Below are positions 43,716 through 58,261 of a DNA stretch of 64,000 nt, one piece after another. The notes beneath the pieces were generated by a model that searched no databases, was not told the origin of the DNA, and was given only the letters and a program-made list of their open reading frames with translations. A program made the translations under genes and the position numbers. Origin of the DNA: Delftia sp. PS-11 (lineage in GTDB: Bacteria > Pseudomonadota > Gammaproteobacteria > Burkholderiales > Burkholderiaceae_C); NCBI RefSeq assembly GCF_029870285.1, contig NZ_JACSYA010000019.1, forward strand, positions 62,001 through 126,000, read 5' to 3'. Each line of letters opens with the position of its first letter. Within the stretch, counting starts at the first letter, position 1.

Positions 43716-44375
43716 ATGTACACCCCCGCCCACTTTCAAGAAACCGACACCGGCCAGCTGCATGCGCTGATTGCGGGCCACCCGCTGGGCATTCTGTGCA
43801 CGCACGGCCCTGGCGGGCTCGATGCCAACCACCTGCCTTTCGAGCTGCGGGCGCAGGAAGGCAGGCTTGGCACGCTGCAGGCCCATGTCGCCCGCAGCAA
43901 CCCGGTCTGGCAAGAGCTGCGCAGCGGCGATGAGGTGCTGGTGGTCTTTCGCGCAGGCGATGCCTATGTCTCGCCCCAGTGGTACCCCAGCAAGCAGGAG
44001 CAGCACCGGCAGGTTCCCACCTGGAACTACCGGGTTGTGCACGCCCGTGGCCGCGTGACCATCCGCGATGACGAACGCTTCGTGCGCGGCCTGGTGGGGC
44101 GCATGACCCGCACCCATGAGGCCGACATGCCCACGCCCTGGAAAATGTCGGACAGCCCCAGGGAGTTCATCGACACGCTGCTGCAGTCCATCGTGGGCAT
44201 CGAGATCGAGATCACCGCCCTCGAAGGCAAGGCCAAGCTGAGCCAGAACAAGGAGGTGCGCGATATCGAAGGCGCAGGCCAGGCACTCAAGGCCCGGGGC
44301 GCGCATGCCGTGGGCGATGCCATGCTGGCATGCGCCATGGCGAAGCAAGCCGGATCTCAGCCCGGCGGCCAGTAG
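43716..44375 (+). CDS. FMN-binding negative transcriptional regulator, PaiB family
   Basis: A 219-aa protein with a split-barrel flavin-binding fold: start MYTPAHFQETDT, LGILCTHGPGGLDANHLPFEL, YVSPQWYPSK, VPTWNYRVVHARG and GIEIEITALEGKAKLSQN. These are the PaiB signature blocks. In Bacillus PaiB represses sporulation and protease genes; in proteobacteria the role is unclear. It converges on the last gene of the DUF4132/MoxR/VWA operon, overlapping it by 19 bp. Confidence 0.9.
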   Translation: MYTPAHFQETDTGQLHALIAGHPLGILCTHGPGGLDANHLPFELRAQEGRLGTLQAHVARSNPVWQELRSGDEVLVVFRAGDAYVSPQWYPSKQEQHRQVPTWNYRVVHARGRVTIRDDERFVRGLVGRMTRTHEADMPTPWKMSDSPREFIDTLLQSIVGIEIEITALEGKAKLSQNKEVRDIEGAGQALKARGAHAVGDAMLACAMAKQAGSQPGGQ

Positions 44376-44644
44376 CGCAGGCTTTGCGCTGTGGCCACCC
44401 AAACCCGGATGTCAAGCAGCGCGCTGGCGCGCAGCAGGGGGTCCGCTTGCCTGTCCAGCACCTGGTCCATGGCGCGTGCCACGGCCAGCCAGCCCAGGGT
44501 CTGGCCTTCGTCCGCCCAGGCACGGCCTGCGGCCTGCAGCGGCGCGCTGGCGCCTGCCAAGCCGCAGGCCTGGATATCGGCCAGCCAGGCCTGGCCGGTG
44601 TCCAGCCAGACGGCCAACGGTGCGCCTTCACCGTGCGTACTCAT
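44357..44644 (-). CDS. Small unknown protein at the end of the MoxR/VWA operon
   Basis: A 95-aa product starting MSTHGEGAPLAVWLD, rich in Ala, Leu and Trp and apparently all-helical, without signal peptide or membrane segment. Its ATG overlaps the stop of the SWIM gene (ATGA), strong evidence of translational coupling within the operon. I do not recognise the family. Its 3' end overlaps the convergent PaiB gene. Confidence 0.65.
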   Translation of the reverse strand: MSTHGEGAPLAVWLDTGQAWLADIQACGLAGASAPLQAAGRAWADEGQTLGWLAVARAMDQVLDRQADPLLRASALLDIRVWVATAQSLRYWPPG

Positions 44645-46302
44645 AGGCCCTCCCCCAGGCTCAATGCATGGTAGTGCTCCTGGCCTTGCCAGCGCATGGC
44701 CACCGGCCACAGATGCAGCCTTGCGGCGTGGAATTCGACACGGCCAAACACTTCCTGCGGCACCAGCCCCTTGAGCAAGCCTGCGCGCAATGCCTGGCCA
44801 CAGAGGCCCTGCGGCCCTTGCAGCATGCCGGACAGGGTGAACCCCGCCCCCTGCGCGCCAGTCAGCTCCAGTGCCCAATGGCCGCGCTGCGCATCGTCCT
44901 GCAAGGTGCCACAACCGGTCACGGCCAGACGCGCCCAGCGCGGCGGCTGCTGGCGCCAGGGGTCGGCACGCAGCTGGGCGGCATGCGCGTGCTGCAGCGC
45001 CAGCACCTCCTCGGGCGCAGGAAGCTGCATGGCAGCCGCTTGCCCGCCTGGCGGGCTGTCGGCCCAGTGTGCGCCTTCGCGCGTGGACAGGCGGCCGTCG
45101 TCGCTGACCCAGCCGCCCGCCAGCACGTGCAGGCCCTGGAGCAGCTGGTCCCTGCCCAGGCCATAGAGTGTTTCGTGCTCCAGCGCCTGCGCAGGCTGCC
45201 ATTCAGGGTCCATGCCTTCGCTGCGCGAACTCGACCAGCACAGATAACGTCCCTCTGCCACATCCTGGAAATGCACGGAAAAACCCCGCTGCCCGCCGCG
45301 TGTGCGCCATACCTCGGCAGCAATGGCACGCAGCGCCAGCCGGTCCACGCGCCGGTAGCTGCGCCGGTGCATGCCTGCCAGCTCGCGCAGCGGCCTGGGC
45401 AGCGGCTGCTGCGCCAGCCCGCGCAGCAGCATCCACAGCGCGGCCAGCAGGGGCGGCAGTGCCTCGGCGGCGCCTGCGCGCCCCGCCCGCTGGTCCCGCA
45501 AGGTGCGCACCAGTACATTCAGCAGCCCTGCGGGACGCGGCAGATCGGCCTGCCGCAATTCGATGGCCAGGGCCTGTCCCTGGTCCAGGAAAGCTGGCCC
45601 CATGGCCGCACCGCCCTGCAGCACCAGGGCCTGCATCCAGTGCCGCGCCTGCGCCAGCCGCGCCAGGGCCATGGCATCCAGCACGTCGGCAGGCAGATCG
45701 GGAATGGGCACGCCCGCCTCGCGGCGCGCCTGCAGCACGACCAGCGCCCGGTGGGCACAGGCTGGGGCCTTGCAACTGCACTGGGCGCCTGCCAGGCCGC
45801 CTGCGCGCGGCAGCCGGACCGTGACCTGCTCAGGGTCGGACAATTCCCCCACCAGTGCCAAGGGTCCCTGCGACAGACCGGCCTGCACGCCCTGCGCCAG
45901 CCAGCGCAGCGCGCGGCGGGTGGCAGCAGCGCCCAGGACCTGGGGCATGGACTGGGCATCGCCTTCCAGCCAGGGCGCCGCCAGCGGAGCAGGCTCGTCC
46001 GCAGCCGTGGACGGTGCCGGCGCTGCACTGGCCAGACGCTGGCGCAGGCCCAGCAAAAAGGCGCACAGGTGGTGGCAGGCGCCATAGGCGGGGCAGCCGC
46101 AGCGCAGGCCGGCAAAGCCCACGCCTTCCAGGGTCTGCGCATGGCCCTCCAGCTGCGCTGCGGCCCGGCCGGCCTCCAGCGTCCAGGCATGGCTATCCAC
46201 GTCCGCCGAAGCCAGCGTCTTCGCGCCTCGGCGCAGCAGGCCCTTGTTGGCCCAGCCTGCAATCGCTTCGTCGTCCAGCGTGCGCAGCCAGTCCTGCATC
46301 AT
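44641..46302 (-). CDS. SWIM zinc-finger protein (YehQ-like)
   Basis: A 553-aa protein with two SWIM-type motifs (CxCx(n)CxH). The first is C68-x-C70...C76-x-H78 in RCGCPAYGACHHLC; a second, CSCKAPACAH, lies about 110 residues later. SWIM fingers bind zinc and are thought to bind nucleic acid or protein. The C-terminal half has no motif I know. Its start overlaps the VWA gene stop (ATGA) and its stop overlaps the 95-aa gene. It corresponds to the SWIM member (YehQ) of the E. coli yeh group. Confidence 0.85.
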   Translation of the reverse strand: MMQDWLRTLDDEAIAGWANKGLLRRGAKTLASADVDSHAWTLEAGRAAAQLEGHAQTLEGVGFAGLRCGCPAYGACHHLCAFLLGLRQRLASAAPAPSTAADEPAPLAAPWLEGDAQSMPQVLGAAATRRALRWLAQGVQAGLSQGPLALVGELSDPEQVTVRLPRAGGLAGAQCSCKAPACAHRALVVLQARREAGVPIPDLPADVLDAMALARLAQARHWMQALVLQGGAAMGPAFLDQGQALAIELRQADLPRPAGLLNVLVRTLRDQRAGRAGAAEALPPLLAALWMLLRGLAQQPLPRPLRELAGMHRRSYRRVDRLALRAIAAEVWRTRGGQRGFSVHFQDVAEGRYLCWSSSRSEGMDPEWQPAQALEHETLYGLGRDQLLQGLHVLAGGWVSDDGRLSTREGAHWADSPPGGQAAAMQLPAPEEVLALQHAHAAQLRADPWRQQPPRWARLAVTGCGTLQDDAQRGHWALELTGAQGAGFTLSGMLQGPQGLCGQALRAGLLKGLVPQEVFGRVEFHAARLHLWPVAMRWQGQEHYHALSLGEGL

Positions 46303-47498
46303 GCGCCATGCCCTTTCATGGTCTCGGCCATCCAGTCGGCCAGATGGTCCGGCGTCATGACGGCCACGTCGGCCCCCAGCTGCCGCAGGCGCACCGCCAG
46401 GTCCCGGTCGTAGTCCGGCTCGGCGCGCCGGTCCAGGGCGGGAAGCACCAGCACGCGCACGCCGCTGCCGATCAGGCGCGCCGTTTCGCGCAGGACATGG
46501 TCCTCGTCATAGCCTTCATAGAGGTCGCTGATCAGCACCACCACGCTGCGGCGCGGAGCCGTGATACGGCCCGCCGCATGCGCAAGGGCCGCGCCGATGC
46601 GGGTGCCGCCGCCCAGCTGGGCGCCCATGAGCAGGGCTTCGGGCTCGCTCAACTGGCCGGAGACATCGGCGACTTCGTCGGAAAACAGCAGCAGATGGGT
46701 CTGCAGCGCCCGCACGCGCGCAAAAATGCTGGCCATGACGGCGCTGTGGATGACGGATTCATGCATGGAGCCGCTCTGGTCCACGAGCAGCCAGAGATCC
46801 CAGCGCAGGCGCAATGCTTCGCGCTCATGGAAAAACAGGCGCTCCAGCACCAGTTGCTGCTGCTCCAGCTGGTAATGGCGCAGGTTGTGGCGCAGCGTGC
46901 GCTGCCAGTCCAGATTGGACAGCTGAGCCCGCCCCCGGCCGGCGGCACGCCGCCGCCGGGGCGACAGGGCCGCACGCACACGCTGGGACAGCCGTGCCTG
47001 CAGGTCGCTGACCACGCGCGCCACCAGACGCCGCGCCTGGGCCAGCACCTGGGGCGGCAGGCTGGTGCGCACCGCCATCAACGCGACCACCAGTTCGATG
47101 CTGGGCGTGGCCTGGGCCAGCACCTCGGGATCGGCCAGCAGCTCCTGCATGCCATAACGGGCCAGCGCATCGCGCTGCAGTACCTCGGCCGCACTGCGCG
47201 GAAACAGCTGACGCACCTCGCCCAGCCAGCGCACGGCCTGGGGGTCGGGCGTGCTCCTGCCGCCACGCCACGGCATGGCTTCATCATCGCCATCGCCAGA
47301 CTGCTCGCGCGCCAGATGTTCTCTGCGGTACAGATATTCCATGGCAGCATCGCGGCGCTTGTCTTCAGGCGACAGCCGAGGGTAGCGGCCGGGGGCATCG
47401 CTGCGCCCGTCTGCCTGGGAAGGGTCCTCGGCATCGGCACCCAGAATCAGCCGCCAGCGCCGCAGTGCGTCTGCGTCCAGTCCTTCGTCTGTTGTCAT
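46299..47498 (-). CDS. VWA domain protein (CoxE-like, YehP-like)
   Basis: A 399-aa protein starting MTTDEGLDADAL. The N-terminal half is helical and Arg-rich (ALSPRRRRAAGRGRAQ). The C-terminal half is a von Willebrand A domain with the metal-ion adhesion motif DQSGSM (Asp-x-Ser-x-Ser) at about residue 237 and VVVLISDLYEGYDED further on. VWA proteins encoded beside MoxR ATPases usually act as their substrate adaptors. Its ATG overlaps the stop of the DUF5682 gene and its stop overlaps the SWIM gene. Confidence 0.9.
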   Translation of the reverse strand: MTTDEGLDADALRRWRLILGADAEDPSQADGRSDAPGRYPRLSPEDKRRDAAMEYLYRREHLAREQSGDGDDEAMPWRGGRSTPDPQAVRWLGEVRQLFPRSAAEVLQRDALARYGMQELLADPEVLAQATPSIELVVALMAVRTSLPPQVLAQARRLVARVVSDLQARLSQRVRAALSPRRRRAAGRGRAQLSNLDWQRTLRHNLRHYQLEQQQLVLERLFFHEREALRLRWDLWLLVDQSGSMHESVIHSAVMASIFARVRALQTHLLLFSDEVADVSGQLSEPEALLMGAQLGGGTRIGAALAHAAGRITAPRRSVVVLISDLYEGYDEDHVLRETARLIGSGVRVLVLPALDRRAEPDYDRDLAVRLRQLGADVAVMTPDHLADWMAETMKGHGA

Positions 47499-49831
47499 AT
47501 CAGTCCCCAGGGCTGCAGCAGGGCACGCACCTGTTCGGCCAACGCCTGGGCAGGCGCTGCCGCCTGAGGGCAGGCAGGCACTGCCACCGCCGGCCGGGCC
47601 AGCAGGCGCTCGCCCCACTGCCGTATCTCGGCGCGGCTCAGTTGCGCAAAGGCCAGGCGCATCGCAGGCAGGCCGTCGAAAAACGCCTCCTCGGGCCAGC
47701 GGGCCACGCCCTGGGCAAGCCGCAGCAGCATGGGCGGGTGACTGAGCAGCCAGCCCCGGCTCACGCGCAGAAAGCCTTGCAGGAATTCCCCCATGGACAC
47801 GGCATCGTGCTCGGCCAGACCCAGCGCCTGATCGATGGCTGCGCCGGCCTGCGCCACGTCCCAGCATCCGGTCACTGCCAGGATGCCGGCCGCCGCGCCA
47901 CGCACGCGCGCCGGCGCCCGGGTGGCGTACAGCGCATCGCAGGCGCCGTGCAGCAGCGCCGCATCGGCCCAGGGCGCACTGCGGCAGGCCATGCCGTGCA
48001 GATCGGCCAGTGCGTCCAGTGCCGCTGCCTGCTGGGCCTCATCGCCTGCGCCCAGCCAGGGCATGCGCAGGCAGGCCTGCTGAAAGCAGCGTGCCAGCAA
48101 GGGCGGCAGCTGGGGCATGTCTTCACCGCCCAGCGCGTGGCAGGCTTCAAAAGCGCGGGCCAGTTGCACCGTGGCCTGGGCCAGGGCCAGCGCATCATGG
48201 CTGCGCTGCACCCAGCCGCCCACGGCCTCCAGCACCTGATCGGCAAGGCCCTCCAGGCCCATGACCAGCACCTCCAGCACACGGGCGGCCGGGCCGCCCT
48301 CGGCAGCGGGGTCGGCCAGCTTGTCGCGCACGCGGCCGATGGCCGCCTCCTGCAGGCTGGCGCCATAGCGCATGGCTTCGGTCAGGGCAACCGCCGTCTC
48401 CACCCGCCAGCCCAGCGACCAGACCTCGCGCACACGCGACAGCCCGGTGCCGGCCACGAAGTCGGGCCCCGCCAGCCGCTGGGCGTAGGGCACACCCAGA
48501 AAGCACAGGCGGTGCAGACCCTGAGAGATGCGGCGGTGGCGCGCGCTGCGGTAGATGTCCAGTTCCTTGCGCACAGGCAGCGCGGGCCGCTGGGGCAGGC
48601 CATGGCGCATGCACCAGTCCTGCACGTCGGCCAGCAGCGGCGCCAGCGGTGCGTTGGGGGGCAGCAGGCCGTATGTGTCATCGCCCAGCAGCCCCGCAAG
48701 CCGCAGCACCGGCACGCCGGTGTCTTCGTCCTGGCGCAGTACGGCGCTGTGCAGCGCCTCGGTCAACTCCATGCGCCCGCCATGGCAGCCACGCAGCGCC
48801 GCCAGGCCATGGGCCAGCCGCACGGCCTCGGACGCATCAGGCAGGCTGGCAGGCAGGTGCCGCTCGCGCAGGGCACTCACCAGGCGCGCTGCCATGGCGG
48901 GCCAGGCCGCTTCGTCGGGCCGTGGCGTGCCAGCCTCCATGGCCTGCCAGACAGCCTGGTAGTAGCCGGGAGCCGGCAGGCCGGCCGCGTAGCCGCTGGC
49001 ACGTTCAAGCCGGGCCAGCGTATAGGGAATCAGGTGAACGCCGGTACGTTGCACGGGCGGGGCCGCGCCGGGGCTGCCCGCCTGGCGCAGGCCCGCGACG
49101 ATGCCAGCCACATGCATGCCGCCGCAGACCACGAGGCAGCGCCCGCCTTCGTCCAGGGCGGCGCGCACCTGGGCTGCCATATGGGCCTCACGCCCGGCAT
49201 CCTCGTCGCTGACGGCACCGGCCTGCTCGCGCAGCAGCGCACTCAGTCCCAGCACGGCGCTGAAATAGGCAGACGCCGTGGCATCTTCTCTTGCAGACTC
49301 GAAATGGCGGTCCCACCATTCGTCGAAATCGCGGCAGCCGCTGGCCTGCACCAGGGCTGCCACGGCATCCGGCGCCTGCCGCACGGGCTCCTGCACCAGC
49401 GTAGGCTCGGGCGAGCGCGCAAAATAGTCGCGCAGCGCCTGCTGCTGCAGCCGTGCGCCATAAGGCAAATCAATGAACCGTACAGCGGCGCCCTGCCGCG
49501 CGGCTTCGCGCAGCGCGACCCACTCGGGCGAGAACGCGGCAAACGGCACATAGCAGCGGCAATGCCAGTCCTCGTCGCCTGCAGCATCCGCCGGCACGCG
49601 GGCGTGCAGGTAGGCCGCCAGCGGCACGCGCGCCCGCGCGTGCTGCAAAGCGGGCAGCAGCGCATCCAGCTCGGTGGGCCCTTCGATCAGCACATGGGTG
49701 GGCTGGAATTCGCGCATCAGCGCGCGCAGGTGATGGGCACAGCGCGGGCTGTGGTGGCGCACGGGCGCCAGGCGCAGGCCGGGCACAGGCGCCAGCAGCG
49801 CCTCAGCCTCAATGGGCAGCACGGCCGCCAT
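47495..49831 (-). CDS. DUF5682 family protein (YehM-like)
   Basis: A 778-aa protein, MAAVLPIEAEALL at the chosen start. Visible family segments near the N-terminus are LRLAPVRHHSPRCAHHL and THVLIEGPTELD; later come VRFIDLPYG, GGRCLVVCGGMHVAG and many Ala/Leu-rich helices. The HHSPRC and IEGP motifs hint at an enzyme-like pocket, but no activity has been assigned. The first 23 bp overlap the MoxR gene, and the stop overlaps the VWA start. It corresponds to YehM in E. coli. Confidence 0.85.
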   Translation of the reverse strand: MAAVLPIEAEALLAPVPGLRLAPVRHHSPRCAHHLRALMREFQPTHVLIEGPTELDALLPALQHARARVPLAAYLHARVPADAAGDEDWHCRCYVPFAAFSPEWVALREAARQGAAVRFIDLPYGARLQQQALRDYFARSPEPTLVQEPVRQAPDAVAALVQASGCRDFDEWWDRHFESAREDATASAYFSAVLGLSALLREQAGAVSDEDAGREAHMAAQVRAALDEGGRCLVVCGGMHVAGIVAGLRQAGSPGAAPPVQRTGVHLIPYTLARLERASGYAAGLPAPGYYQAVWQAMEAGTPRPDEAAWPAMAARLVSALRERHLPASLPDASEAVRLAHGLAALRGCHGGRMELTEALHSAVLRQDEDTGVPVLRLAGLLGDDTYGLLPPNAPLAPLLADVQDWCMRHGLPQRPALPVRKELDIYRSARHRRISQGLHRLCFLGVPYAQRLAGPDFVAGTGLSRVREVWSLGWRVETAVALTEAMRYGASLQEAAIGRVRDKLADPAAEGGPAARVLEVLVMGLEGLADQVLEAVGGWVQRSHDALALAQATVQLARAFEACHALGGEDMPQLPPLLARCFQQACLRMPWLGAGDEAQQAAALDALADLHGMACRSAPWADAALLHGACDALYATRAPARVRGAAAGILAVTGCWDVAQAGAAIDQALGLAEHDAVSMGEFLQGFLRVSRGWLLSHPPMLLRLAQGVARWPEEAFFDGLPAMRLAFAQLSRAEIRQWGERLLARPAVAVPACPQAAAPAQALAEQVRALLQPWGLI

Positions 49832-50948
49832 CGACGAAATCGAGCCAGTCCGCGCTGGACGCGCGCTGGCGCGCCACCACGCGCAGGTATTCGGCGAAGC
49901 GGCGCCGGTCCTCGTCGTCGTCCTTGATGACCGTGCCCAGCAGGTGATGTGCCAGATGCGCTGGGCGCAGCCGCGCCTCGCCAAAATACCAGCACTGGCT
50001 GGCGGCATTGAGCACCACGTCGATGGCCTCGGCCGTGGACAGCACCGTGCCGGGCCGCTCCACGGCAATGTCCCCGACCTGTCCACTGCGCAGCTCATGG
50101 AAGGCGGTGGCCAGCAGGGTCAGCACCTCGGGGGCAACGGTGGTGCCGATGCGCTGGCGCGCCAGCGCTCGGCCTGCTTCTTCGGCGATCAGCGCGGCCT
50201 GGGCCTGCACGCTCTCCAGAGGCCGCATGGTCTCGAAGTTGAAGCGGCGCTTGAGCGCCGAGGACATTTCGTTGACGCCCCGGTCGCGCAGATTGGCTGT
50301 GGCAATGACGTTGAAGCCCGGCCGCGCCAGCAGCCAGGGCTGCTCGTGCTTGAGCTCGGGAATCTGCAGCAGGCGCTCGGACAGCACAGGCACCAGGCAG
50401 TCCTGGACCTCGGTGGCGCAGCGCGTGATTTCCTCGAAGCGCAGCAGCCGCCCCTCGCTCATGGCGCGGTGCAGCGGCCCCGGCACCAGAGACTCCGGCC
50501 CCGGCCCATCGCGCAGCAGCAGCGCATAGTTCCAGCCGTAGCGGATCTGCTCTTCCACCACACCGGCCCCGCCCTGCACGGTGAGCTTGCTGTCGCCGCT
50601 GATGGCGGCCGCCAGCAACTCGGACAGCAGCGACTTGGCCGTGCCGGGCTCGCCCACCAGCATCAGGCCGCGCTGCCCGGCCAGGGTGACGATGGCGCGC
50701 TCGACCAGCGCGTCATTGCCATGGATCTTGCGCGCAACGGCCAGGCCGTCATCCCCCTGGGGGCCTGGCCCGCCCAGGATGAAGCGGCGCACGGCGCGCG
50801 GACTCAGGCGCCAGCCTTCGGGGCGCGGCCCCTGGTCGCTGTCCTGCAGCGCGGCCAGTTCCTGCGCGTGGGCCTGCTCGGCCGGCTGGCGCTGAACGGC
50901 GGCGGCATCGGCTGCGCGCGCAGCGGTGGAGTTGCGCCGGGTCGCCAT
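49809..50948 (-). CDS. MoxR-type AAA+ ATPase (YehL-like)
   Basis: A 379-aa AAA+ protein. After an Ala/Gln-rich leader (residues 1-45) come Walker A VGEPGTAKS (residues 98-106), a Walker B-position segment LLRFEEITR near 168-176 (the usual DE is EE), sensor 1 FNVIATANLRDRGV and the arginine-rich ALKRRFNFE segment. MoxR ATPases act as chaperones that load metals or remodel VWA-linked complexes. Its start overlaps the DUF4132-b stop (TGATG). Corresponds to YehL in E. coli. Confidence 0.9.
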   Translation of the reverse strand: MATRRNSTAARAADAAAVQRQPAEQAHAQELAALQDSDQGPRPEGWRLSPRAVRRFILGGPGPQGDDGLAVARKIHGNDALVERAIVTLAGQRGLMLVGEPGTAKSLLSELLAAAISGDSKLTVQGGAGVVEEQIRYGWNYALLLRDGPGPESLVPGPLHRAMSEGRLLRFEEITRCATEVQDCLVPVLSERLLQIPELKHEQPWLLARPGFNVIATANLRDRGVNEMSSALKRRFNFETMRPLESVQAQAALIAEEAGRALARQRIGTTVAPEVLTLLATAFHELRSGQVGDIAVERPGTVLSTAEAIDVVLNAASQCWYFGEARLRPAHLAHHLLGTVIKDDDEDRRRFAEYLRVVARQRASSADWLDFVDGGRAAH

Positions 50949-53866
50949 CAGTCACCCTCCCTGCCGCTGACCGCCTTGGCGGCCATGGCCGCGAACTGCC
51001 CCATCAGCGTGGCCTGCAGCGCACGCGGCCACTGCGCTGGCTGCAGGCGCAGCCAGCGGCCATCTTCATCGCGCTGGCTGCTGTCAAAGGCCACCGCGTT
51101 CACTATGGATACACGGTTTTCCAGATCCATGAAGGGCATGTAGCGGCCATGATTGAGCGTGATGGACAGCTGCGGCCCTGTCAGGTCCAGGTTGTGCTCG
51201 TAGATGCCGGGGCCATCCTCCACAGAGCCGGGACGGTAGTTCCATTTGGCCAGCAGCCCGGACAGTGCGCCCTGGCTGATTTCCAGCGCGGCAGCAGGGT
51301 GCAGGGCACCATCCTTCCATTGCGAGGCATCGGGCAGCAGACAGGCTGCGCCCACCTGATCGATCAGCGGCTGCAGCTCATAGTCGGCCAGGCAGGTGCG
51401 CCAGGCCTCGGCCTCGCCCGGCGCGGCATCCGCCGGGTGCCAGAGCGTGATGTGCGCATCTGCGGGCAGCTCCACCGGGTCATCATTGGCATCCACCAGC
51501 GAAAAATCCTCGGCAATACGAAAGCTCACGCCCTGCTGCAGCTGCCAGATCAGGCTGCGCCCCACGATGCGCAGCAAAGGGTGCTGCAGAAACAGCCTGT
51601 GCCAGCGCTGTGCCGGCCAGCGCTGGCCGGTGATGAAGGCGGTATGCAGGCGCGGCCCCTGCTGTTTGGCAATGGCCTTGACCCCCGAAGCCGTGGTCTT
51701 GAACTCGGCGTTGGCCGCATCCCACTGCAGGCGCAGCGATTCGTCCTTGAGCGCGGGCAGGGTCTTGGAGGCCTTGCCCTTGTCGTTCACCACACGCAGG
51801 CTCAGATCGCCCTGCAGTTGCACGCGGTAGCGCTGCGGCCCCACCTCCAGCACCAGGCCATCGCCGCCCAGGCCAAAGTCCGGCGTCAGTTCGTCATACA
51901 GCTCGATCAGGCTCAGCCCGCGCCGCTGGGCCGCTGCCTTGAGGGTGTCGTGCGTGGCCGCGATGACCAGGTCCTTGAGCTTGCGCGAGGTGGACAGCGC
52001 CTGCACCTGGGACAGCGCATAGATGGTGTCGAGCGCGCCCAGCTGCTCCACGGCAATCACGGCGCGCTGCTTCTTGGTGTAGCCCCAGGCCTTGACGGCC
52101 GCCACCAGGGTCTGCACCAGGCGGTCGTCAATGTGGCCGGCGGCCAGGCGCAGCGCCCAGCGCGCCTTGGGATCGCCCTCCAGCCCCACCCAGACATTGA
52201 CCAGATGCAGCGACAGCTGGGCCCGGCTCTCGGTGGGCACATGGGCCAGCATCTGCCACACCAGCGGCGGCAACTCCTCCTCGGCCGTGGCCACCAGATG
52301 CAGCACGATGCGCGCGGCATGCTCGGACAAGGGGGCGAACAGCGCCAGCGTCTGCGGCTGGTCGTAGGGCTTGATGCTGCTGGAAAAACGCTTGAAGCGC
52401 GCCACGCGGGCCTCCAGCGCCTGCAGATCAACCGGTTGCCCGTCCGCCCCCTGCCCTGCCAGGGCACCAGGCACCTGCACGCCCAATGCCAGCAGCCGGG
52501 CCTCGACCATGCTCTCGGAGCCCAGGTCCAGGCCCGTGCGCAGCAATGCCTGCAGCAAAGGGGCCACGCCCGGGTCCGGATGGGCCAGCAAAATGTCGCG
52601 GCAGGCCAGCTGCATCTGCTTTTCGCGGCGCGCCAGCCAGCCCGTGGACTCGAACACGGCGCCCAGGGCCTGTGCATCCAGCGCCTGCATGCAGCGCGCC
52701 ACAGCATCGCGCAGTGCCCGCGAGTTGCTGCCAGACAGCAGATCGCCCAGTGGCGGCAGCAAGCCATGCAGCAGGGACGGGTCCAGCTGCGGCAGCAACT
52801 GCGCCAGCCTTGCCGTGGGAATGTCGCGCAAATAGTCTGGCTGCTCGGCCAGCATGCGGTTGAGCAGCGCGATGAAAGACGCGCTGCTGGACCGCTTCAG
52901 AATGCAGGACAGCAGGTGAGGCATGAGCTGCGGGTAGCGGGCATCCCAGATCTGCTGGGCCGTCACCGCATCGAAGTGGTAGCTGGGGCGCCAGCCTTGC
53001 ATCCAGTCCGCAAAAGGCTGGGCATCATCGCGCACCAGACGGTCGAAGATGGCGGTGAAGTAGTCCTGCGGCTCGCGGTCGGCATCGCGCATGAGCATAT
53101 TGACCAGCTCTTCGCGGCACTTGGCATCGGCGCCCAGGTCCCAGCGCAGTGCGATCAGGCCAGGATCTTCCTTGATGGGCTTGGCATCGAACCAGTCGGG
53201 GTGGCGGCGAAAGAAGTCGTACCAGGGTGCGCAGCGCTGCGGATGCGGCACCTCGCTGTGGCGTTGCATGTAGATGCGGCTGGCGTCCGCATAGAACTCA
53301 CCGCCCCGCTCTGCCAGTTGCAGCAGGTCATCATCGCCCAGGCTTTCCAGCAGATCACGCCATTCAATGCCGCCATAGATGGGGCCACCCAGCTGATTGA
53401 GCTGCGCGGCCCAGTCCATGTGCGCCAGCACCTTCTCGCGCTCAATCCCCGGATACCAGAGCCAATTGAACATGCCGAGGATGCGGTTTTCGCGGAAATC
53501 GCGCTTGTCCTCCTCGGCGCGGGGCCGGGCCAGGCTGGCGCGTGCCATCTGCTCGAACTCTGCTGCCAGCTCGGGGCTGCGGCGCGGAATCGTGCGGTCC
53601 CAGCTGCCCACCATGTCGAAACCGAAAGGAATCATCTGCCGCGCGAACGCCAGCCACAGGTCATGATCCTGGGTCCAGGGCAGGTCATTGCCCCGCAGGT
53701 TGCGCAGCGGATGGTCGTAGCTGTCGAAAACCTTGCGCAGAAAGGCGCCAACCTCTGCGTCCTGTCCGGCGCGCATGCGCTGCGCCAGAACCTGCGCCAG
53801 TTCGGTGGCTGGCAGGGAAGCGCTCAACTCATCAAGCGTGGCCTGTTCGGTGGTGATGGTGTTCAT
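50948..53866 (-). CDS. DUF4132 protein, paralogue b
   Basis: A 972-aa cytoplasmic protein with mainly helical, HEAT-like N-terminal and middle parts and a C-terminal DUF4132 (MolR-type) domain from about residue 650: IELYDELTPDFGLG, RVQLQGDLSLRV, HPLLRIVGRSLIW and ITLWHPAD. The N-terminus has one copy of a unit (LPWTQDHDLWLAFARQMIPFG) that occurs twice in its upstream paralogue. The start MNTITTEQ was chosen over an ATG 9 codons earlier. Its stop overlaps the MoxR start. E. coli YehI is the single-copy counterpart. Confidence 0.88.
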   Translation of the reverse strand: MNTITTEQATLDELSASLPATELAQVLAQRMRAGQDAEVGAFLRKVFDSYDHPLRNLRGNDLPWTQDHDLWLAFARQMIPFGFDMVGSWDRTIPRRSPELAAEFEQMARASLARPRAEEDKRDFRENRILGMFNWLWYPGIEREKVLAHMDWAAQLNQLGGPIYGGIEWRDLLESLGDDDLLQLAERGGEFYADASRIYMQRHSEVPHPQRCAPWYDFFRRHPDWFDAKPIKEDPGLIALRWDLGADAKCREELVNMLMRDADREPQDYFTAIFDRLVRDDAQPFADWMQGWRPSYHFDAVTAQQIWDARYPQLMPHLLSCILKRSSSASFIALLNRMLAEQPDYLRDIPTARLAQLLPQLDPSLLHGLLPPLGDLLSGSNSRALRDAVARCMQALDAQALGAVFESTGWLARREKQMQLACRDILLAHPDPGVAPLLQALLRTGLDLGSESMVEARLLALGVQVPGALAGQGADGQPVDLQALEARVARFKRFSSSIKPYDQPQTLALFAPLSEHAARIVLHLVATAEEELPPLVWQMLAHVPTESRAQLSLHLVNVWVGLEGDPKARWALRLAAGHIDDRLVQTLVAAVKAWGYTKKQRAVIAVEQLGALDTIYALSQVQALSTSRKLKDLVIAATHDTLKAAAQRRGLSLIELYDELTPDFGLGGDGLVLEVGPQRYRVQLQGDLSLRVVNDKGKASKTLPALKDESLRLQWDAANAEFKTTASGVKAIAKQQGPRLHTAFITGQRWPAQRWHRLFLQHPLLRIVGRSLIWQLQQGVSFRIAEDFSLVDANDDPVELPADAHITLWHPADAAPGEAEAWRTCLADYELQPLIDQVGAACLLPDASQWKDGALHPAAALEISQGALSGLLAKWNYRPGSVEDGPGIYEHNLDLTGPQLSITLNHGRYMPFMDLENRVSIVNAVAFDSSQRDEDGRWLRLQPAQWPRALQATLMGQFAAMAAKAVSGREGD

Positions 53867-53963
53867 GGGTGCGGGGTCTGCAAGAAAATTCAAGCCTGTG
53901 GCACAGCCGCCAGGCAGCGAGTATCGCCGGTACCAATAGAGTTCCCGGCCATGTCATGCAACA

Positions 53964-56900
53964 TCAATCATTGCCTTTGGCCTTGGCAGCAAGCGCCCGC
54001 CACTGGCCCTGCAGCGTGGCCAGCAGCGGCTTGGGCAGTTGGGCTGCACTGCGGCTGTTCCAGTCCATGCCGTACACGCGGATGCTTTCCACATCCACCG
54101 GCAGACCCAGGTCCAGATAGGGCGGGAAGTGGCCATGGCTCAGTTCGATGCGCAGCTGCAGCTCGGGCAGCTGCCAGACATGCTCGTTGATGCTGGGGCC
54201 ATCTCCCACGGGCCCAGGCCGGTAGCCGAACTTCTTGAGCAGGCTGCCAAGGCTCTCCTGTGCCAGCGTCAGCGGCGCGGGTGGCAGCAGCAGGCCATCC
54301 TTGAACTGCCCGGGCGCCGGCAAATCGGCGCATGCCCCCAGCTGATCGACCAGGGCCTCCAGTTCGTAATCGGCGAAGTAGGCGCGCCAGGCATCCACTT
54401 CGCCCGGCAGCGCCGTGGCCGGGTGCCACAGGCTGATGCTGCAGCCTGCGGGCAGGGCCACGGCAGCGTCTTCGACATCGACCAGCGACAGATCCTCGGC
54501 CAGCCGGAAGCTGGTGCGTGCCAGGTCCGGCGCCCCCTCGGCGCGCCAGATCAGGCTGCGGCCCACGATGCGCAGCAGCGGATGCTGCACGAACAGCCGC
54601 TGCCAGCGCTCCAGCGGCCAGCGCTTGCCGCTGACCAGTGCCGCCAGCATGCGCGGCCCCTGCTGCTTGACCACGGTCTTCAGGCTGGTGGCCAGGGTCT
54701 TGAGCCGGGCCGTGGCCGCCTCCCATTCGGGCTTGAGCGCCTCGTCCCTGACCGCTGGGATGGATTTGCTGGCCTTGCCCTGGCCGTTCACCACACGCAG
54801 GCTCAAATCGCCCTGCAACTCGACGCGGTAGGCCTGCGGCCCGACCGTGAGCGTCAGGCCCTGGCCCAGGCCGAAGTCCGGCGTCAGCTCGTCATACAGC
54901 TCGGACAAATCCATCTGCCGACGCCTGGCGGCCGCACGCAGCGCATCCAGCGCCACACGCTGCAGCCGCTCCTTGAGCGCGCGTGATTCGGACACTTCCT
55001 GCGCACGCAGCAGCGCATAAAGGCTGTCCACACCGGCCAGGGCCTCCAGGGCAACGACGGCCCGTGGCGTGTGCGTCCTGTTCCAGGCCCGTACAGCGGC
55101 CGCCAGCGCATCGACGGCACGGTTGTCGGCATGGCCGGGCAGCAGCCTGAGCACCCAGCGCTGCTTGGGCTCGCCATCGGCAGCGATCCACTGCTGCACC
55201 AGCGCGAGCGCCAGCCCGGCGCGGCCGTCCGGGGCCATGCGCGCCATCAATTCCGTCGCCAGCGGCGGCAGATCGCCCTCGGCCGTGGCAGTCACGTGCA
55301 GCAGCACGCGGGCCTCGTGCTCGGACAGCGGCGCGCACAGCGCCAGCAGCTCGGGCGTATCGAAAGGCTTGATGGCGGCGCTCAGGCGTTTTACCGCAAC
55401 GACCTGTGCGTCCAGGCTGGCATCGGCGCTGCCAGAAGCCGCTTCGGAGACAGGGGTGGACGATCCGGCGGCCACCGGTCCGCTGTCCTGCGGCAGTACC
55501 TGCGCCTGCCCGGACAGGCCCAGCTGCTGCAGCCGCTGGCGCACACTGCTGGCCGAGGCCGCATCGAGCTTTGCGCCCGCCAGCAGTTGGGCCAGCAGCG
55601 GACCTGCGCATGGATCGGGGTGCACCAGCAACACGTCGCGGCAGGCCAGCAGCAGATTCTTGTTGGGCTGCTCAAGCCAGCCGGCCTGCACAAGCCAGTC
55701 CGGCTGCAGCTGCGCAGCCAGGGCTGCCACGGCCGTGCGCAGGCCCTTGGCGCTGCTGCCCGCGATGATGGAGGTCAACGTGGGCAAAGCAGCCTGCAGG
55801 CTGGCCGCATCCAGCGCAGGCAGCAAATGCACCAGATCCTTGACCGCCATGCCTGCCAGATCCCCCGGGCTGCGCATGACCTGGGTGCGGATCAGGGGCT
55901 GCAGCCTGCGCATGCTTTCCCGGTCATTGCGCTGGCATTGCTGGGCCATGGCCGGCAACAGCAGAGGCTGCAGCGCAGCCGGCCCATGGTCGCAGATATG
56001 CTGAAACAACGGGCGGCCCGCGTAATGGCCATGGTCGCGCAGCGCTGCCGCAAAAGGCCCGGCATCCTCGTGTGCGAACCGGTCGAACAGTTGCCGGGCC
56101 TGCACCAGCTCCTTGCCGCGCCCGGTCCCGACCTGGTCCATCAGCGCCCAGGCCAGCTCCTCGCGGCGCTGGGCGCTGGCGCCGGGCCAGCGCTGGCCGA
56201 TCAGCGCGCCATCGCGCAGGCCGGCCCTGTCGAATACCTTGTCGAACAGCAGGGGATGCTGCGCGAAAAAAGCCTGCCAGCCACTCCAGTCCTGCTTCTG
56301 GCGCGTGCGGATGAAGCACTCCAGGATGTCATCGAACAGCCGCCCGCCTGCCGCCGCATAGCGCTGCAGGTCCGCATCGTTCAGGGCGGCAATCAGTGCG
56401 CTCCAGTCGGGCTGCCTGCGCCAGCGGCTCCAGTCGCCATCGGTATCCGCGTCATGCAGAAAACCAGCCTCTTGGCACAAGGCCAGCGCCCAGTCCAGCG
56501 TCGCCGTCACCTGCTCGTAGGGCATGCCGTCATAGCTGAGCCAGGGCAGCAAGTCCTTGAGTACCAGGCTGGCGCCCTGGTCCAGCGTGCCGGTGCTGCG
56601 GCAATGGGCCAGCCACTGCTCGGCCAGGGCACGCACCTCGGCGGCCACCTCGGCCGTGACCCGCCTGTCACCGGGTGCGCCCGGCACATGGCCGCGCGGC
56701 ACCATCAGCCGGGCAAAGGCCAGCCAGCGCCCGCTGTCGCGCGTCCATGGCGCATCGCCTCGGTACATGCTTCTGAGCACATCATGGCAGTTGTACTCAC
56801 CCTCGCTCAAAGCCAGAGCCCAGTCGAGCGTTGCGCTCACCTCTTCGTCGGGCATGCCGTCGTACACCAGCCAGGGCAGCAGGTCGTCGAGCACCAGGCG

Positions 56901-57284
56901 CCTGCCCTCATCGGCCTTGCCGGCGCTGCGGCACTGGGCCAGCCACTGCTGGGCCAGGGCGCGCACCTCGGCTGCCACCTGGGCCGTGACCTGCCAGGCA
57001 CTGTCCTCAGGCCCTTTCAGCGCATGGCCGCGCGGCACTGTCAGCCGGGCAAAGGCCAGCCAGCGCTCGCTGTCGCGCGCCCAGGGCGACTCGCTTTGCT
57101 TGAGCCAGCCCAGAATGGTGAGGCAGCGCTCATCGCATCGGCCCAGAAATTCGCGCACCTCGTCGGCGCGATCATCGTGCAGGCGGGCATCGAGCTCGAT
57201 GGCAAAAGCCTGCGCCGTCACGCCTTTGTGGAGCAAGGCATAGAGATCCGCCAGGGGGGCCGTGTGAAGATCAGGTGTACTCAT
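53964..57284 (-). CDS. DUF4132 protein, paralogue a, with internal duplication
   Basis: A 1106-aa protein, first gene of the operon, starting MSTPDLHTAPLADLYAL. Residues about 66-160 and 178-270 are two copies of one unit: SPWARDSERWLAFARLTVPRGH / APWTRDSGRWLAFARLMVPRGH, then LLPWLVYDGM / LLPWLSYDGM and ATLDWALAL in both. A long helical repeat region follows, then a C-terminal DUF4132 domain from about residue 785 (SELYDELTPDFGLG, HPLLRIVGRSLIW, ISLWHPAT). It is clearly paralogous to the next gene, from which a 97-bp gap separates it. No WGR domain is evident. Confidence 0.88.
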   Translation of the reverse strand: MSTPDLHTAPLADLYALLHKGVTAQAFAIELDARLHDDRADEVREFLGRCDERCLTILGWLKQSESPWARDSERWLAFARLTVPRGHALKGPEDSAWQVTAQVAAEVRALAQQWLAQCRSAGKADEGRRLVLDDLLPWLVYDGMPDEEVSATLDWALALSEGEYNCHDVLRSMYRGDAPWTRDSGRWLAFARLMVPRGHVPGAPGDRRVTAEVAAEVRALAEQWLAHCRSTGTLDQGASLVLKDLLPWLSYDGMPYEQVTATLDWALALCQEAGFLHDADTDGDWSRWRRQPDWSALIAALNDADLQRYAAAGGRLFDDILECFIRTRQKQDWSGWQAFFAQHPLLFDKVFDRAGLRDGALIGQRWPGASAQRREELAWALMDQVGTGRGKELVQARQLFDRFAHEDAGPFAAALRDHGHYAGRPLFQHICDHGPAALQPLLLPAMAQQCQRNDRESMRRLQPLIRTQVMRSPGDLAGMAVKDLVHLLPALDAASLQAALPTLTSIIAGSSAKGLRTAVAALAAQLQPDWLVQAGWLEQPNKNLLLACRDVLLVHPDPCAGPLLAQLLAGAKLDAASASSVRQRLQQLGLSGQAQVLPQDSGPVAAGSSTPVSEAASGSADASLDAQVVAVKRLSAAIKPFDTPELLALCAPLSEHEARVLLHVTATAEGDLPPLATELMARMAPDGRAGLALALVQQWIAADGEPKQRWVLRLLPGHADNRAVDALAAAVRAWNRTHTPRAVVALEALAGVDSLYALLRAQEVSESRALKERLQRVALDALRAAARRRQMDLSELYDELTPDFGLGQGLTLTVGPQAYRVELQGDLSLRVVNGQGKASKSIPAVRDEALKPEWEAATARLKTLATSLKTVVKQQGPRMLAALVSGKRWPLERWQRLFVQHPLLRIVGRSLIWRAEGAPDLARTSFRLAEDLSLVDVEDAAVALPAGCSISLWHPATALPGEVDAWRAYFADYELEALVDQLGACADLPAPGQFKDGLLLPPAPLTLAQESLGSLLKKFGYRPGPVGDGPSINEHVWQLPELQLRIELSHGHFPPYLDLGLPVDVESIRVYGMDWNSRSAAQLPKPLLATLQGQWRALAAKAKGND

Positions 57285-57802
57285 GGCATGGAGGCGCGCG
57301 GCACACGCCACGGCCAGAATGTGAAGAAAATCGAGAACGGAAACCTGCACCGGGCAGCGCGAGAGCGCCGACGAAAAGCCATGGCATTGTCAGCCATAAC
57401 GCACACGGCTCAGCCAACGGCATTGTCAACCCAGACTGCGCATCGCTTGACAATCTGTCAGGTGCGCGTGACAGGTCCGAGAAGCCCCCTGGTGATTAGC
57501 ATGCAAATCAACTGCCTCGTGTTTTTTGCATGCTTCATGCCATCCTGCTCAAACCAGGAGATCAGTAACAAACGCATGCCATAAGGATCGTGCAAAGGTG
57601 CTGAGCGGGCAGACCAGCCAGCACCGATCCGTCAAGCACAAGTGTCTGAACCTGGACAGCTTGATTGAAGTCAACCCGCATACCCTGATCGTGTCTATGC
57701 TCGGGGCAGCCATGTAGCGCCTCCTTCACGATCTCCGGACATGCCCGGTGACCGCCGGAAGGCACACCAGCCAATTCACCCGCATTTCAAGGAGAAAACA
57801 CA
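57285..57802. other. Divergent control region: DUF4132/MoxR/VWA operon and azurin
   Basis: No gene is supported; a 63-codon frame at 57526-57717 lacks a ribosome site and coding character. The left part has five TGTCA/TGACA pentamers (57388, 57424, 57448, 57456 and 57467), the last three arranged as TGACA-ATC-TGTCA-N6-TGACA, possibly an operator. The right part contains the FNR-type site (57661) and -10-like TATGCT (57696-57701) of azurin. Confidence 0.5.
57661..57674 (+). promoter_or_regulatory. FNR/ANR-type site upstream of azurin
   Basis: TTGATTGAAGTCAA matches the FNR consensus TTGAT-N4-ATCAA at nine of ten fixed positions. A TATGCT -10-like box starts 22 bp after the site (57696), which places the site at about -41 for a start near 57709, the geometry of class II FNR activation. 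Azurin is FNR/ANR-controlled in Pseudomonas. Confidence 0.6.
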
Positions 57803-58261
57803 ATGGCAAAGCAATGGAAACCCGTCCTTTTGGCACTCGCCATGACTGCAGCTGCCGCCCCGGTGTGGGCAGCTGACTGCGCTGTCGAAATCGAAAGCAA
57901 CGACGCCATGCAGTTCAACAAGCCCACCATCAGCGTGCCTGCGAGCTGCAAGCAGTTCACCGTCAAGCTCAAGCATGTGGGCAAGCTGCCCAAGGCCTCC
58001 ATGGGCCACAACTGGGTGCTGAGCAAGACGGCCGACATGCCGGGCGTGACCACCGATGGCATCGCTGCCGGCGCAGCCAAGGACTTCGTCAAGGAAAAGG
58101 ATGCCCGCGTGATCGCCCACACCAAGCTGATCGGCGGCGGAGAGTCCGACTCCGTGAGCTTCTCGCCCAGCGCCCTCAAGGCCGGCGAAGCCTATAGCTT
58201 CTTTTGCTCCTTCCCCGGCCATTCCGCGCTGATGAAGGGCACAGTGACCCTGGCCAAGTAA
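57803..58261 (+). CDS. azu: Azurin (periplasmic blue copper protein)
   Basis: Soluble electron carrier of the periplasm. The 152-aa precursor has a signal peptide ending VWA at residue 23; the mature 129 residues start ADCAVEIES. Type 1 copper ligands fall at exactly the canonical mature positions: His46 (MGHNW), Cys112 and His117 (FFCSFPGH) and Met121 (ALMKG). The Cys3-Cys26 disulfide pair is also present. A GGAG site precedes the ATG. It may donate electrons to respiratory enzymes, with FNR-type control suggesting low-oxygen induction. Confidence 0.97.

Follow-up and report, generated by a model that had tools for sequence, protein, structure and literature searches.

The seven-gene operon at positions 44357 to 57284 of the window, by which we mean the whole 64,000-nucleotide stretch of DNA analysed (positions 62001-126000 of the contig in the 5.44-Mb genome of Delftia sp. 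PS-11), is, judging from its protein sequences, orthologous to the yehI-L-M-P-Q genes of Escherichia coli and contains a gene set that recurs beyond chance across very distant bacteria. We infer that it quite possibly encodes an ATP-driven protein-remodelling machine acting on proteins of the DUF4132 family and on a Tiki-fold metallo-hydrolase. The initial annotation had presented the operon as an undescribed system, which holds for its function, as none was found assigned to the cassette in the literature searched, but not for the gene group, since YehL is already named as one of seven MoxR subfamilies (PMC3893208, in part). The gene group is thus already known and the tandem DUF4132 genes of the window are lineage-specific; the points that seem new are the assignment of DUF5682 to the Tiki/TraB type, how widely the cassette occurs, the amplification of DUF4132 only, and the presence of two cassette types in one genome. 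The features of the operon are as follows.

53964..57284, minus strand: DUF4132 gene 1, 1106 aa (Pfam PF13569, E 9.7e-30)
50948..53866, minus strand: DUF4132 gene 2, 972 aa (Pfam DUF4132, E 2.5e-30; AlphaFold2 model)
49809..50948, minus strand: MoxR-type AAA+ ATPase, YehL-like, 379 aa (AAA_5, E 1.4e-33)
50631..50654, minus strand: Walker A GEPGTAKS of the MoxR protein (alignment)
47495..49831, minus strand: DUF5682 gene, 778 aa (Pfam DUF5682, E 8.4e-115)
49751..49759, minus strand: putative Tiki-type motif 1 of DUF5682, R25-H26-H27 (62-sequence alignment)
49682..49684, minus strand: putative Tiki-type motif 2, E50 (62-sequence alignment)
49178..49192, minus strand: putative Tiki-type motif 3, R214-E215-x2-M218 (alignment; opposite RNxxM of TraB)
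49112..49123, minus strand: putative Tiki-type motif 4, G237-x2-H240 (alignment; opposite GAxH of TraB)
46299..47498, minus strand: VWA_CoxE gene, YehP-like, 399 aa (Pfam VWA_CoxE, E 1.2e-47)
46767..46781, minus strand: VWA MIDAS D-x-S-x-S, residues 240-244 (89-sequence alignment)
44641..46302, minus strand: SWIM-finger gene, YehQ-like, 553 aa (family HMM, E 2e-129; YehQ match)
46069..46101, minus strand: first SWIM finger, C68-x-C70-x5-C76-x-H78 (75-sequence alignment)
44357..44644, minus strand: 95-aa gene, split-off SWIM C-terminal segment (identity to longer SWIM C-termini)

The seven reading frames follow each other in the order DUF4132, DUF4132, MoxR, DUF5682, VWA_CoxE, SWIM and 95-aa gene, with a sole intergenic gap of 97 bp between both DUF4132 genes and overlaps of 1 to 23 bp at the remaining five junctions. 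Coordinates, gene content, tight spacing (overlaps or at most 97 bp) and domain composition (Pfam families, the DQSGSM motif in the VWA protein and the SWIM finger) all agree with the initial annotation, as does the likeness to the yehI-yehL-yehM-yehP-yehQ group that it had recognised. In the same order, the identities to the E. coli proteins are 28% (DUF4132 to YehI), 49% (MoxR to YehL, 348 aa), 29% (DUF5682 to YehM), 38% (VWA to YehP) and 26% (SWIM to YehQ, over 194 aa, E 1e-6). The cluster of E. coli K-12 reads yehF, yehH, yehI, yehK, yehL, yehM, yehP, yehQ, where the yehF family PF05406 is, as we take it, the WGR family, and where yehH, a DUF4132 gene annotated as a pseudogene, adjoins yehI. 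Paired DUF4132 genes are therefore no difference from E. coli, contrary to what had been stated before. A WGR module at or before DUF4132 is absent from the window proteins and, being found in some relatives only, is not counted as defining the yeh cassette. A YehL-type cassette combines a YehL-type MoxR gene with adjacent or overlapping DUF4132, DUF5682, VWA_CoxE and SWIM genes, and both elements are present here.

A single scan, run with an alignment that covered the MoxR proteins of both cassette types, served to survey relatives; the best 80 of at least 580, all from named genomes, were kept, so that the sample tilts to close relatives of the YehL type. Family profiles, seeded from the window, E. 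coli and relatives, were run over all open reading frames (ORFs) of 100 loci, and loci in which MoxR has 9 kb or more of sequence on each side, 55 among the best 80 of at least 580, were treated as full-flank loci. All five parts were found in 49 of these 55 loci; for the single parts the counts were 55 for DUF5682, 53 for SWIM, 52 for VWA and 49 for DUF4132, with one or more parts missing in L055, L062, L071, L095, L104 and L128. The surveyed loci come from phyla that presumably include Pseudomonadota, Bacillota, Spirochaetota, Planctomycetota, Actinomycetota, Myxococcota, Verrucomicrobiota and Bacteroidota. With so many complete loci in many phyla, the synteny, a survey of which had been proposed with the initial annotation, is non-random beyond close relatives. 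Pairwise divergence of the five proteins correlates at 0.59-0.84 against a permutation maximum of 0.14 (68 of 89 loci, with all five), a correlation that leaves co-evolution and common descent unseparated. At closer range, DUF4132 occurs in 7 of 61 relatives and in 5 of 37 genomes of the genus (G000, G006, G009, G023, G033), and is thus patchy within the genus, while DUF5682 occurs in 13 of 399 genomes of the order, 12 of them over the cut-off.

The same genome carries, on another contig, a cassette of the order SWIM-DUF5691-MoxR-DUF5682-VWA, with DUF5691 in place of DUF4132. It resembles the window operon at 46% (MoxR), 28% (DUF5682) and 37% (VWA) identity, and the homology of the SWIM proteins extends beyond the finger (hhalign 1.9e-8), but here the SWIM gene comes first and DUF5691 replaces DUF4132. 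This type was present in 9 of 18 fetched regions, the own genome included, the regions having been chosen by DUF5682 or DUF4132 matches; of 299 genomes from the phylum, 8 have a DUF5691 match (6 over the cut-off), three of them within the genus, and DUF5691 had no match in any of the best 80 of at least 580 MoxR relatives. One cassette of this type (L039) has a DUF4241 gene inside. DUF4132 and DUF5691 were also considered as clear homologues, an idea that was given up as they share only a 44-column HEAT-like match (E 0.0011). Neither DUF5682 nor DUF5691 was found mentioned in the literature searched.

The two DUF4132 proteins of the window are 43% identical. The AlphaFold2 model of the second (pLDDT 90.8, pTM 0.74) consists of a helical HEAT-type solenoid at about residues 166-657, followed by an alpha/beta C-terminal DUF4132 domain at about 660-972. 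HEAT_2 was recognised in 21 of 47 DUF4132 members, the family also matches designed and natural HEAT proteins, and the VIA-align list for the model holds mainly HEAT-type solenoids, a common kind of helical repeat, with the C-terminal domain barely probed; all 47 members scanned, selected by matching DUF4132, share the same domain. Among the 55 full-flank loci from the best 80 of at least 580 relatives, DUF4132 is present at two to three copies in 14 with a length limit applied and in multiple copies in 15 without it, the counts covering the 21-kb loci only, and in the same loci MoxR and DUF5682 occur once each and VWA and SWIM at most once. In a tree of 94 DUF4132 ORFs, 19 loci hold two or more copies, which are mutually nearest in five of them, and both window genes belong to a clade of eight tips made up of the window and two same-genus relatives with three copies each. 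This pattern points to an expansion that was repeated and often lineage-specific. Several loci, such as L089 and L123, contain old DUF4132 copies.

The place of DUF4132 in the cassette is variable: among the 55 full-flank loci of the best 80 of at least 580 relatives it lies downstream in 15, on the opposite strand in 3 and is missing in 6, and in two same-order relatives (L047, L048) the 20 kb fetched hold DUF4132 and none of the other parts. DUF4132 is thus perhaps less intimate with the machine than the other parts. Of its two roles proposed earlier, effector or scaffold, that of a scaffold is plausible given the HEAT solenoid, the C-terminal domain and its being the only amplified part, and so is that of a client. 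Its exclusive amplification marks the part where clients might be sought.

DUF5682 probably carries a Tiki/TraB-type domain, as judged from conserved motif positions and a predicted structure. The model (pLDDT 89.5) has a probable Tiki/TraB-like N-terminal domain at about residues 1-255 and a C-terminal helical-repeat part at about 492-778. The Tiki/TraB superfamily is defined by the motifs H, E, R-x-x-x-M and GxxH, and these are present in DUF5682 at a spacing that matches TraB. Four motif positions are invariant in 62 of 62 aligned sequences; within motif 1, R25 and H26 are invariant and H27 is conserved in at least 90% of the 62, and the pattern R-H-H-S/G-P was found in 91 of 94 long DUF5682 ORFs. 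Foldseek against the PDB returned nothing for the model at E 1e-3 or better, with a list mainly of helical repeats, hhalign of DUF5682 against two TraB sequences gave 0.35 with controls at 0.16-0.65, and among the weak Pfam matches the unrelated NESP55 (one member) outscores TraB and ChaN, so that the Tiki assignment rests on the motif positions and second-line matches. Searches of PDB sequences with the DUF5682 and TraB alignments gave no useful relative. DUF5682, whose putative metal site is conserved, is put forward as a candidate metallo-hydrolase or peptidase, and the Tiki/TraB reading of this family (YehM) supplies a predicted active site that can be tested.

The SWIM gene had no Pfam match at E 0.1, and was identified by a family HMM seeded with the window protein itself; the columns of its C-x-C..C-x-H finger (residues 68-78) are invariant across all 75 SWIM_A sequences aligned. 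The 95-aa gene, first regarded as an extra gene, turned out to be the C-terminal piece of the SWIM protein: its product aligns with the final ~90 residues of three longer SWIM proteins (P0014 at 49% identity, E 6e-20; P0011 and P0010 at 43% each). A separate ORF of ~100 aa follows SWIM in 14 of the best 80 of at least 580 relatives, and the segment is fused in some relatives; this count, from which two of 16 listed loci (L076, L102) were dropped as N-terminal SWIM pieces at contig ends, is backed by alignment for 13 of the 14 and by position only for L119. We take 12 of these loci to be Bacillota, with one Treponema and one unclassified. Two other readings of this gene, as a new component and as a bacteriocin, were rejected, as the Pfam match (E 0.056) is below the cut-off and the SWIM C-terminus matches instead. 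By eye, the product resembles a helical stretch common to the SWIM proteins of both cassette types.

In the ATPase and its partner both features of a MoxR/VWA chaperone pair are present, an intact MIDAS and Walker A. The Walker A sequence G-x-P-G-T-A-K-S/T was found in 98 of 98 MoxR ORFs, and the MIDAS residues D, S, S together with the distal T and D are invariant in 89 of 89 aligned VWA sequences. The Walker B motif of MoxR proteins usually has an aspartate where the region RFEEITR, found in 73 of the 98 ORFs, has a glutamate. VWA_CoxE is the top-scoring Pfam VWA family for the window VWA protein, and a PDB sequence search with this protein gave no useful relative. From the two conserved sites and the recurrent gene set, the MoxR/VWA machine in the earlier proposal of an NTP-driven assembly or conflict-type system is supported; the conflict part is unsupported.

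In the machine proposed here, the metal of the VWA MIDAS would couple the MoxR hexamer to its partner, as in NorQ-NorD and RavA-ViaA, and ATP turnover would remodel DUF4132, which may be a client or a target-selecting arm. This remodelling might then load, open or deliver substrate to the Tiki-like site of DUF5682, while SWIM, plus WGR in relatives, might bring the complex to nucleic acid or to a partner bound to it. If so, several DUF4132 paralogues per machine would mean several clients or targets. A more specific and rather unlikely version has the MoxR/VWA motor gate DUF5682 as a Tiki/TraB metallo-peptidase, with exchangeable, repeatedly amplified HEAT arms (DUF4132 or DUF5691) picking the targets and SWIM/WGR serving those bound to nucleic acid; if true, the cassette would represent a new ATP-dependent class of machine, proteolytic or hydrolytic.

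The nucleic-acid-binding modules could alternatively belong to a genotoxic-stress machine, in which WGR and SWIM recognise damaged or unusual nucleic acid, MoxR/VWA remodel a stalled complex there and DUF4132 is a damage-linked arm. Among the 100 loci scanned, WGR occurs within 16 DUF4132 ORFs, spread over 14 loci, and in three separate ORFs, but in none of the window proteins. In the parts of the sources used, E. coli molR is among the LexA-regulated genes (PMC11039860; PMC3978071), the yehF transcript reaches log2 1.14 during an SOS time course (PMC11002266), and DUF4132 and WGR genes of Deinococcus go up upon DdrO depletion (PMC8533742). The stretch before yehF has a LexA-like site (one mismatch) whose end lies 9 bp from the gene; the number of such sites in that region agrees with chance (10 against 8.9 expected). 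The stretch upstream of the window operon (57284-57881) lacks LexA-type sites at one mismatch, and the whole window holds 22 of them against 23.3 expected, which is chance. SOS regulation as a general feature was rejected after an upstream scan of 70 loci, which used stop-to-stop ORFs and took MoxR as the start in E. coli (the yehF site is from a separate scan), and which gave scattered single matches (L083, L116) and no consistent SOS-type site. The SOS link of molR and yehF is lineage-specific evidence, and such a stress function is doubtful for the cassette. The same low likelihood is given to a maturation chaperone, with MoxR/VWA inserting, as NorQ-NorD and CoxD-CoxE do, a metal or cofactor into a client, either DUF5682 itself or an enzyme encoded elsewhere. 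NorQ-NorD provides a precedent for iron insertion (PMC9976466, in part), yehM is mutated, as one of many genes, in copper-evolved E. coli (PMC12409786, in part), and both the conserved putative metal site of DUF5682 and VWA_CoxE as best-scoring VWA family would fit; however, there was no recurrent metalloenzyme neighbour, no Pfam family matching more than 3 of 144 flanking genes, and the amplification of DUF4132 is left unexplained.

A role in biological conflict (anti-phage or abortive infection) of the MoxR-vWA kind is the more improbable still. Such pairs form the core of four conflict systems (PMC7159879, in part), and the patchy distribution of DUF4132 among relatives and of DUF5682 in the order, as well as the lineage-specific expansion of one large component, would be in keeping with it. 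However, PADLOC matched only one of the seven proteins, the VWA protein, through a weak WYL match (E 0.0019), and Pfam recognised no effector-type domain in any of the seven. As regards the hypervariable effector domains of such systems, DUF4132 varies in copy number, and the 47 members scanned, selected by matching it, all have one and the same domain. A link to defence islands had been raised with the initial annotation; of 165 flanking genes selected at 57 loci of relatives, 144 were scanned and 18 PADLOC families were matched, 17 of them in one gene only, so that by this raw count, made without a matched control, no recurrent defence family accompanies the cassette. Since mad2, mad3, mad6 and mad8 lie near one cassette, which suggests one real MADS locus, the association with defence is not zero. 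Where a family was recognised, the neighbours in the window are ordinary (chemotaxis receptor, aldehyde dehydrogenase, sigma-54 activator domain, FMN-binding protein, azurin and short-chain dehydrogenase), with 4 of the 10 neighbouring frames tested lacking a Pfam match. The azurin gene lies ~1.6 kb from the operon in G006 and ~32 kb in G023, and in both genomes the FMN-binding neighbour is away from the operon, so that no clean insertion (empty) site was found there. In E. coli, yehL-Q has a match in 5301 of 5426 genomes (in 5162 with 80% or more of the query covered), with 5320 of 5322 placements chromosomal, and the yehH-yehI part matched in 5304 genomes (4772 at 80% or more coverage). On mobile elements the window MoxR is rare: at E 1e-40 it matched 40 of 72,556 plasmid records, a set that includes chromosome-sized ones, and at E 1e-20 it matched 1 of 50,697 phage records. 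Parts of the cassette are thus carried by most E. coli genomes and by many phyla, yet no assigned function was found.

Several known systems can be set beside the remodelling machine proposed here. The Tiki, TraB and ChaN proteins share with DUF5682 a similar motif spacing (H18-E44 and R225-H250 in the TraB alignment, H26-E50 and R214-H240 here), and fold comparisons gave second-line matches; sequence matches are weak, the first motif of DUF5682 is R-H-H rather than G-T-x-H, and DUF5682 has a large C-terminal helical-repeat extension. RavA-ViaA, NorQ-NorD and CoxD-CoxE likewise pair a MoxR AAA+ protein with a VWA partner, but are not known to have DUF5682, SWIM or DUF4132. RavA and NorQ also belong to MoxR subfamilies other than that of the window protein (PMC3893208, in part). 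The ternary MoxR-vWA conflict systems (with VMAP, iSTAND, FtsH or beta-propeller) equally combine MoxR and vWA with a third large component, but DUF4132, DUF5682 and SWIM are absent from the main text of the paper describing them (PMC7159879). Pfam and PADLOC found no VMAP, iSTAND, FtsH or beta-propeller match in the seven proteins, and the bpMoxR match is below the cut-off (21.2 against 27 bits). Among the closest known systems is also the E. coli yeh cluster, which differs from the window in its WGR module, in yehK, which has no match in the window, and in an undivided SWIM protein, the C-terminal piece being split off in the window, whose DUF4132 genes fall, among the loci compared, in a clade limited to this locus and two same-genus relatives; both share the five families in identical order and two adjacent DUF4132 genes, one of them the yehH pseudogene.

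The Walker B region of the MoxR proteins in this group reads R-F-E-E-I-T-R, in this exact form in 73 of 98 proteins, and carries a glutamate at the position where aspartate is the usual MoxR residue.

Window 49809-50948: MoxR gene with a Walker B region of the R-F-E-E-I-T-R type

The genome of Delftia sp. PS-11 contains a second cassette on another contig (C2), in the order SWIM-DUF5691-MoxR-DUF5682-VWA, in which DUF5691 takes the position of DUF4132. Within a further DUF5691-type cassette (locus L039), a DUF4241 gene is flanked by MoxR on one side and DUF5682 on the other. The order is rearranged in one Variovorax locus (L100), with VWA and SWIM upstream of DUF4132-MoxR-DUF5682. Two loci (L047 and L048) have DUF4132 genes without MoxR, DUF5682, VWA or SWIM in the 20 kb fetched per locus.

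L031 7498-15562: second cassette of the Delftia genome, contig C2
L039 8551-9282: DUF4241 gene inside a DUF5691-type cassette
L100 2718-13626: rearranged Variovorax cassette
L047 7984-10482: DUF4132 gene standing without other cassette parts
L048 7737-10598: DUF4132 gene standing without other cassette parts

An azurin-like gene adjoins the operon start in the window; in two other genomes of the genus, azurin lies about 1.6 kb (G006) and about 32 kb (G023) from the operon. In E. coli, a LexA-like site with one mismatch ends 9 bp upstream of yehF, the first gene of the yeh cluster, in a region where such sites occur in chance number (10 found, 8.9 expected).

Window 57803-58261: azurin-like gene
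L013 2450-2465 (E. coli yeh region): LexA-like site, one mismatch, before yehF

In the flanks of at least one locus in the range L049-L118, mad2, mad3, mad6 and mad8 were matched by one gene each, which suggests a single MADS defence locus close to a cassette.
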